Of a stretch of 64,000 nt of DNA, positions 15,953 to 21,208 are shown piece after piece. Below the pieces are notes generated by a model, which saw only the letters and a program-made list of their open reading frames with translations, was not told the origin of the DNA and searched no databases. Origin of the DNA: Thermococcus guaymasensis DSM 11113 (GTDB lineage Archaea; Methanobacteriota_B; Thermococci; Thermococcales; Thermococcaceae). Location: the NCBI RefSeq assembly GCF_000816105.1, contig NZ_CP007140.1, positions 1,700,388 through 1,764,387 on the forward strand, in the 5' to 3' direction. Every line of letters begins with the position of its first letter. The stretch's first letter is position 1. A program made the translations under genes and the position numbers.

Positions 15953-15966
15953 ATGACGAGTGTCAT
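15953..15966. promoter_or_regulatory. operator palindrome A (ATGAC-N4-GTCAT)
   Basis: A perfect inverted repeat, ATGACGAGTGTCAT. It lies 13 bases upstream of the DUF438/hemerythrin start and just downstream of a minus-strand TATA-like cttaaaagta (about 15973-15982), so it covers the expected transcription start. That placement fits a repressor site. The same motif occurs at 17923-17936 and 18001-18014. Confidence 0.72.
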
Positions 15967-16015: not shown

Positions 16016-16029
16016 ATGTCGCATGTCAT
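16016..16029. promoter_or_regulatory. operator palindrome B (one mismatch)
   Basis: ATGTC-GCAT-GTCAT, the shared motif with one mismatch in the left half. It overlaps the 3' end of the TATA-like tttatatg (16011-16018) in front of the TusA/DUF1858 gene. Protein bound here would block TBP access. Confidence 0.6.
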
Positions 16030-17922: not shown

Positions 17923-17936
17923 ATGACAGGTGTCAT
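17923..17936. promoter_or_regulatory. operator palindrome C (ATGACAGGTGTCAT)
   Basis: A perfect inverted repeat in the hcp leader. The likely minus-strand TATA (cttttatgaa) is at about 17962-17971, so the site falls at or just after the expected transcription start. This is a classic repressor position. It shares the same half-sites and 4-base spacer with sites A and D. Confidence 0.75.
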
Positions 17937-17998
17937 ATGCGGTTGTTTATTGGAAAAATCTTCATAAAAGCGTTGCGGTTTCTTAACTTAAAGAAGGG

Positions 17999-18030: not shown

Positions 18031-18062
18031 CTTAAATATTCCGCCTGTCATGGTTACCACCA
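18031..18062 (+). promoter_or_regulatory. TATA box of the HTH regulator, leaderless start
   Basis: The stretch caaaaagcttaaatatt is a good archaeal BRE/TATA. Counting about 26 bases from its centre puts transcription start at or next to the ATG at 18062, and no Shine-Dalgarno site is present, so the mRNA is probably leaderless. Confidence 0.6.
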
Positions 18063-18448
18063 TGAAGGTCAGCGCTTTCGAAGTTGCCTCACGCTATGTT
18101 TATCCCTCACTCAGGCGGAGACTTGTAGAACACCTCCGCGAGAAAGGCCTGAAGCAGACCGAGATAGCGAGGCTCCTCCACATTACCCAGTCTGCCGTTT
18201 CCCGCTACCTCAACATGGATAGGGGGGCCTTAATAGACATCTCTCAGTTTCCAGACATTGACGCTGAGCTCCGCTCGTTTGCCGAAGAGATTATTGAGAA
18301 AAAGCCCGGGGAGTACGAGATACACAGGAGGCTCGTGGAGATCTCAGTAAAAATGTTGGGAAAGGGCTATGTCTGCTCATTCCATGCAAAAATTGACCCT
18401 GAAATAAATCCCTCAGAATGCAACGTGTGCCTTGACCTCTTTGGGTGA
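18062..18448 (+). CDS. HTH regulator with C-terminal cysteine cluster, candidate hcp regulator
   Basis: A 128-residue protein. Residues of about 15-55 form an XRE-like helix-turn-helix (KQTEIARLLHITQSAVSRYL). The C terminus has Cys105, Cys120 and Cys123 with His108 (YVCSFH ... SECNVC), a set that could hold an iron-sulfur cluster or zinc. Position next to hcp and a palindrome in its own promoter make it the likely factor that binds ATGAC-N4-GTCAT and senses NO or redox state. That role is inference; the HTH assignment is firm. Confidence 0.85.
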   Translation: MKVSAFEVASRYVYPSLRRRLVEHLREKGLKQTEIARLLHITQSAVSRYLNMDRGALIDISQFPDIDAELRSFAEEIIEKKPGEYEIHRRLVEISVKMLGKGYVCSFHAKIDPEINPSECNVCLDLFG

Positions 18449-20938: not shown

Positions 20939-21208
20939 TTGGCCACCCTAACGGTGGGGGAGTTTTCCTGCATTCAGTGTCTCTTTGGTGATGAAGACTT
21001 TGACAGCGAGGTTGATGCCGTCAGGATAGGCATGGAGCAGGAGAAGCTCACCCGGGAGTTCTACGAGAAAGTAGCTAAGGAAGCGAAGCACGAGTCCGTT
21101 AGGAGGATCTTCGAGGAGCTAGCAAAGATAGAGAAGGCCTAGTACGACTCGGTGATGAAGACGGGGATATGGATGGACTACCAGGACTTCAGCCTTGAAG
21201 TTGATTGA
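20939..21208 (+). pseudogene. rubrerythrin-like gene interrupted by an in-frame TAG
   Basis: The frame encodes a ferritin-like helix pair (AVRIGMEQEKLTREFYEKVA ... VRRIFEELAKIEKA), then TAG at 21140-21142. After this the same frame continues as YDSVMKTGIWMDYQDFSLEVD to a TGA. The tail with WMDYQDF is typical of rubrerythrin-like proteins of this order, so one base change (GAG to TAG) probably broke the gene. The N terminus also looks altered: no good ATG, only TTG. Pyrrolysine is not expected in this lineage. Confidence 0.65.

Follow-up and report, generated by a model that had tools for sequence, protein, structure and literature searches.

A Cys-tail HTH protein encoded next to hcp in Thermococcus guaymasensis: a probable repressor of nitric oxide and redox stress genes

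In bacteria, the control of hcp in response to nitric oxide (NO) has been assigned to HcpR, NsrR and other factors. NsrR is an Fe-S containing, NO-sensing repressor of hcp, hmp and ytfE and belongs to the Rrf2 family, like IscR, which binds a [2Fe-2S] cluster by Cys3His ligands. Both proteins contain three cysteines with a short and regular spacing, to which a histidine is added in IscR. HcpR is a member of the Crp/Fnr family and regulates hcp in strict anaerobes. For the Thermococcales, the order of the organism studied here, SurR is known as a sulfur-responsive, redox-type regulator with a CxxC motif; it is an ArsR-type protein, larger than the one described below, and recognizes the motif GTTn3AAC. 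In Haloferax, OxsR was identified as a single-domain stress regulator of the TrmB family which uses cysteines (PMC9426492). A literature search, with bioRxiv preprints outside its scope and subscription papers sparsely covered, gave no description of the regulator reported here and no archaeal hcp regulator.

The window, the whole stretch of 64,000 nucleotides that was analysed, is part of the complete 1.92-Mb genome of T. guaymasensis (G000), the relatives of which include other members of Thermococcus. The following genes and protein regions were assigned in it:

18062..18448, plus strand: gene of the Hcp-linked Cys-tail HTH regulator (name coined here), 128 amino acids, with ORF and start kept in 70 orthologous sequences
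18110..18226, plus strand: HTH region, residues 17-55, with Pfam matches above the gathering score and AF2 helices at residues 5-27, 32-39 and 43-51
18368..18430, plus strand: putative metal/redox site, Y103-x-C105-x2-H108...D112...P117-x2-C120-x2-C123
16534..17904, minus strand: hcp, coding for the hybrid cluster protein (annotated as 'hydroxylamine reductase'), divergent to the regulator gene; TIGR01703 with 650 bits (cut-off 361, equivalog), Prismane PF03063
16051..16530, plus strand: TusA-DUF1858 gene, adjoining hcp and divergent to the DUF438 gene; PF01206, PF08984
14599..15939, minus strand: DUF438-hemerythrin-PAS gene, 446 amino acids from the conserved start; PF04282, PF01814, PF13596

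The regulator ORF translates to MKVSAFEVASRYVYPSLRRRL...GKGYVCSFHAKIDPEINPSECNVCLDLFG. An in-frame ATG at 18050 was rejected as start, position 18062 being the start conserved in all orthologues. An XRE/Cro-type HTH was identified by the match to HTH_3 (26.1 bits, cut-off 23) at residues 17-54, the subtype being uncertain because HTH_5 passes its gathering score in the same region (25.5 bits, cut-off 22). The AF2 model, calculated with 51 orthologues as input, is all-helical and confident (pLDDT 89), with lower values in the Cys tail (pLDDT 77-81), where helices begin at residues 105 and 122. Beyond the HTH and the Cys tail, Pfam and the model revealed just two further helices and no recognised ligand-binding domain. 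Compared to the PDB, the model gave no fold match at E<=0.001, with weak HTH matches only, and the sequence likewise matched at the HTH level only. No match was obtained in viral contigs; a genome contig collection contained one Thermococcus MAG and two short HTH matches only, and a plasmid search gave four haloarchaeal matches, two of which are annotated as members of the thiamine-phosphate synthase family.

A first-pass annotation of this DNA had described a tail behind the HTH holding Cys105, His108, Cys120 and Cys123, and exactly this arrangement was found. It had also proposed an alignment of orthologues as a check for the invariance of the cysteines. Orthologues were identified in 69 of the 94 family genomes, across six genera, giving 70 sequences (one MAG was counted twice) with identities down to 63%. 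In all 70, C105, H108, C120 and C123 are identical, and Y103, D112 and P117 are likewise unchanged. The proposal thus survived the refutation which it had named for itself, cysteines varying between orthologues. The codons of the four residues vary synonymously, with TGC 46/TGT 24 for C105, CAC 42/CAT 28 for H108, TGC 60/TGT 10 for C120 and TGC 48/TGT 22 for C123. Cysteines outside this tetrad are absent from 69 of the 70 proteins. The invariant ligand pattern is C-x2-H-x11-C-x2-C, which is not the spacing of NsrR and IscR.

The regulator contains neither a Crp nor a Rrf2 domain, so that the earlier statement of a layout unrelated to the Crp-like HcpR and the Rrf2-like NsrR holds. No Rrf2 family was present among the best 25 of 31 Pfam families (E up to 1), of which HTH_3 and HTH_5 were the best, and the TrmB winged helix of OxsR (PF01978) was absent from the same 25. 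With its 128 amino acids, it also has no cNMP-binding or Crp HTH domain among the Pfam and NCBIfam families listed. Membership of the NsrR, IscR, HcpR and OxsR groups was rejected on these grounds. If the model set out below is right, it would be a small three-Cys repressor like NsrR, and like NsrR would control hcp together with a hemerythrin repair-like gene, but from an unrelated family, with a different cysteine spacing and a different operator. Three cysteines and one histidine are also the ligand set of IscR, a likeness taken as a lead only; the ligand order is Cys-Cys-Cys-His in IscR and Cys-His-Cys-Cys here, and the Rrf2 fold is missing. With HcpR it shares the linkage to hcp in strict anaerobes, and with OxsR the use of cysteines in a single-domain archaeal protein.

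A palindrome, ATGACAnnTGTCAT, was identified 18 bp upstream of hcp. In the window, the following candidate operator sites were assigned:

17923..17936: operator O1, ATGACAGGTGTCAT, without mismatch, 18 bp ahead of the hcp start; the sole perfect match to the palindrome in the 1.92-Mb genome
18001..18014: operator O2, ATGACTTATGTCAT, one mismatch, between hcp and the regulator gene; its distance of 77-81 bp to O1 is conserved in many genomes
18038..18051: half-conserved weak site, ATTCCGCCTGTCAT, immediately preceding the regulator gene; it deviates from the consensus at 2-3 positions and occupies -24/-25 in most orthologues
15953..15966: operator O3, ATGACGAGTGTCAT, 13 bp ahead of DUF438, with one mismatch; at the same position before DUF438 or the flavodiiron protein (FDP) gene in 45 genomes
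16016..16029: operator O4, ATGTCGCATGTCAT, 21 bp ahead of TusA-DUF1858, with two mismatches; 63 bp from O3, a spacing counted 18 times in related loci

The palindrome differs from the HcpR consensus wTGTGAnnnnnnTCACAw (PMC1274295). It also differs from the SurR motif, and SurR has a different architecture as well. Family-wide, it recurs with 0-1 mismatch before hcp and before the DUF438 gene or the FDP gene at the head of its operon, and in some genomes also before the TusA-DUF1858 gene. For hcp, a site with at most one mismatch is located no more than 70 bp from the start in 42 genomes; for TusA-DUF1858, the site is found 16-20 bp upstream in several genomes. Four further one-mismatch sites are present in the T. 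guaymasensis genome outside the regulon, none of them preceding a superoxide reductase or rubrerythrin gene. In the hcp gene of the closest relative (L003, G018:C1:1514338-1515705), an in-frame TAG was observed, so hcp may be inactivated there; the regulator of this genome is 98% identical. Within the window, a short rubrerythrin/ferritin-like ORF of 67 amino acids at 20939-21142 looks truncated.

In the 94 genomes, 109 perfect sites were counted, compared to one for a reversed control pattern. From 75 perfect sites listed, 66 have hcp, DUF438 or the regulator gene no more than 400 bp downstream, and five more precede an operon in which FDP comes first, followed by DUF438 where the locus was read through. 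Perfect operators are present in 61 of the 69 genomes with the regulator and in 1 of the 25 without it (Fisher p=1.6e-14), the DUF438 gene in 67 of 69 and 4 of 25 (p=6e-15) and, more loosely, hcp in 49 of 69 and 3 of 25 (p=3e-7), p-values which overstate the strength of the association because related genomes are not independent. The single regulator-less genome with a perfect operator is a fragmented draft, with a break of the hcp contig directly upstream of the operator. Of the eight regulator genomes lacking a perfect site, most carry one-mismatch sites in place. Only two regulator genomes show no operator of this or better quality at the regulon promoters in the loci read, namely G072, with no recognisable operator, and G090.

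Better evidence than the p-values is given by relocated genes and by operator decay. The operator has stayed with hcp where this gene is remote from the regulator (1.5 Mb away in G027, on another contig in G048, 7 kb away in G059), and with remote DUF438 genes in G005, G007, G008 and G009; in front of such relocated genes it is still found at 10-60 bp. G017 is a complete genome which has kept DUF438 and lacks the regulator. Here, the operator position reads aatttaatgtgactgtgaaggtg; the palindrome is gone, with TATA element and ribosome binding site intact, and no site with at most one mismatch was present within the stretch examined. On these observations, read directly from the genome sequences, the operator and the regulon almost certainly belong to this regulator. 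A different, unlinked transcription factor might bind the palindrome, with the Cys-tail protein merely located nearby; in some Pyrococcus-like genomes the regulator is indeed far from its targets, and its DNA binding is predicted. This is highly improbable, since the operator tracks the regulator even when unlinked (G005, G007 and G009 have both), G006, G010 and G011 are devoid of both a perfect operator and an intact regulator gene, and absence of the regulator goes along with operator decay.

Some loci carry traces of loss. In G009, which has no hcp, a perfect operator (L116:1699) remains between the two genes which in G005 (L108) enclose hcp, an apparent scar of a deleted hcp. A second, decayed copy of the regulator gene, or what remains of one, was observed at G049:C16:3325-3698, and remnants in G010, G011 and G026, three genomes without hcp, DUF438 or perfect operators. 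Three perfect sites in Pyrococcus-like genomes (L106, L107, L115) are unexplained and do not precede known regulon genes. In two of these genomes the perfect operator is conserved between purine-nucleoside/MTA-phosphorylase-like and Cdc6/Orc1-like genes (L106:1557, L115:1689), adjoining no regulon gene. The third site (L107:1813) lies just before an ORF for a 97-amino-acid membrane protein without Pfam match, next to suf-like genes; this ORF may be an additional target there.

At hcp, DUF438, FDP and TusA, 12-21 bp separate the site from the start codon; it closely follows a TATA-like element, or overlaps it in the case of TusA, and lies beside or over the initiation region. Since a protein bound at such sites should block initiation, this placement points to a repressor, unlike HcpR. 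Paired sites occur at fixed spacings of 63, 77-81 and 190-194 bp, which suggests cooperative or looped binding. It is possible that the regulator controls its own gene by the weak site at 18038-18051.

The content of the regulon points to NO as the signal. In genomes without hcp, the regulator gene is mostly found near the TusA-DUF1858/DUF438 pair. FDP, which heads the DUF438 operon in some species, is NO-reductase-like, and among solved structures it is closest to 1ycf, the NO reductase of Moorella (E=2.7e-84). Flavodiiron proteins also reduce O2. By comparative genomics, control of an NO-defence type was predicted, with hcp, NO-reductase and repair genes represented by the operators before hcp, FDP and the DUF438-hemerythrin gene. 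NO is favoured because this target set is close in kind to those of bacterial NsrR, HcpR and NorR (PMC1274295). For Hcp, recent bacterial work described an NO reductase and also a weak peroxidase activity (PMC10210160). These further activities of FDP and Hcp make O2 or peroxide a possible signal, too. A role of the regulator in NO or redox stress is likely. The earlier proposal of a distinct NO/redox regulator is strengthened by the regulon (Hcp, FDP, DUF438-hemerythrin-PAS and TusA-DUF1858) and by the shared operator which tracks the regulator; as a whole, its interpretation is supported in part, an Fe-S cluster being one candidate content of the tail.

In the model preferred here, the regulator would act as a transcriptional repressor which binds ATGACAnnTGTCAT, presumably as a dimer, in front of hcp, the DUF438-hemerythrin-PAS gene (with the FDP gene ahead of it in some species), the TusA-DUF1858 gene and probably its own gene. 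The C-terminal C105, H108, C120 and C123 would hold a metal centre formed by zinc or by an Fe-S cluster. By reaction of NO or oxidants with this centre, DNA binding would be weakened and the detoxification genes would be turned on. The probability of this model as a whole is estimated to be about 0.62. Very probably, the protein represses NO/redox-stress genes and has a Cys3His site as sensor; taken for itself, the tetrad is rather likely to be the sensor, and an Fe-S cluster as its content has a chance slightly below even.

With the same regulon and operator, the tetrad might instead bind Zn(II) or act as a set of bare redox thiols. The signal would then be oxidation (by O2, peroxide, disulfide or sulfur stress) or S-nitrosation, and not damage of an Fe-S cluster. 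Four residues arranged as CxxH...CxxC are as compatible with Zn(II) or a redox thiol switch as with a cluster; CxxH and CxxC pairs, here each near a helix start in the AF2 model, are common zinc ligands, OxsR provides a known thiol-based regulator of oxidative stress in archaea (PMC9426492), and TusA-DUF1858 is sulfur-related. However, the targets resemble an NO defence more than the usual peroxide or superoxide set, and this alternative is considered unlikely.

The tetrad could also be a structural zinc site, as used by many proteins of thermophiles, in a repressor which senses something else or nothing; repression would then be constitutive or controlled by the level of the protein, and the stress signal would enter by another factor. 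In this respect, a second conserved palindrome, GGTTtmTTAAC(C), was observed upstream of hcp between O1 and O2 (17978-17988). It is not the exact SurR motif, having a spacing of 4 instead of 3, and may mark another hcp regulator. This purely structural role is improbable in view of the few elements outside the HTH and the Cys tail, two helices without a recognised ligand-binding domain, and of a ThiN-fused paralogue of the regulator, which keeps the HTH and the linker without an intact tetrad. In all 21 Thermococcales sequences read for this paralogue, the H108 position is occupied by Tyr (or a shifted Tyr) and the C123 position by a residue other than Cys, mostly Phe. The complete tetrad is therefore not needed for that fold, which favours a sensory role in the regulator.

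The paralogue, found in the same genome with E=3.2e-6, introduces a wider archaeal family defined by a common HTH, linker and C-terminal CxxH...CxxC, to which the regulator belongs. True relatives with the same HTH, linker and Cys tail are the HTH-ThiN proteins (ThiR-like thiamine regulators; hmmsearch E 7.7e-11 to 2.6e-8) and small 'PPCE' HTH proteins of other archaea (E 2.6e-16 to 7.1e-12), one of which gave a single match when searched against plasmids. The ThiN fusions carry a ligand domain, whereas the regulator ends after the Cys tail, by which an identity as HTH-ThiN protein was ruled out. The small relatives carry an additional Cys set that is missing from the regulator. Outside the family of genomes compared here, some relatives contain CxxH...CxxC in the aligned tail and others lack this part. 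Two sets can be distinguished, A with Pro-Cys near the N-terminus plus CxxC, and B with CxxH...CxxC. Both are present in L092-L094, L095-L098 have no intact set B, and the Thermococcales regulator has set B only. This independent distribution identifies A and B as separable modules.

Tentatively, with odds somewhat short of even, the regulator may represent a previously undescribed archaeal class of NO-sensing repressors with a metal centre, probably Fe-S, unrelated to NsrR, HcpR, NorR and IscR. Such a class would combine an XRE-like HTH and a CxxH...CxxC tail with an Hcp/flavodiiron/hemerythrin regulon in hyperthermophilic anaerobes, within a family which reuses separable Cys sets for thiamine (ThiN), NAD (nadA neighbours) and possibly arsenic genes. 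This would suggest that the assembly of an NO-defence regulon took place on more than one occasion, with unrelated proteins as sensors. Small and thermostable, and with operator, targets and four possible ligands defined, this candidate makes the sensing of NO or related stress in strict hyperthermophilic anaerobes directly testable.

Among the small relatives with a Cys-rich tail, those at L093-L098 adjoin nadA, coding for quinolinate synthase, an Fe-S enzyme, and those at L092 and L096 are located near a gene for an ACR3-type arsenite exporter. These proteins may regulate the adjoining nadA or arsenite exporter genes.
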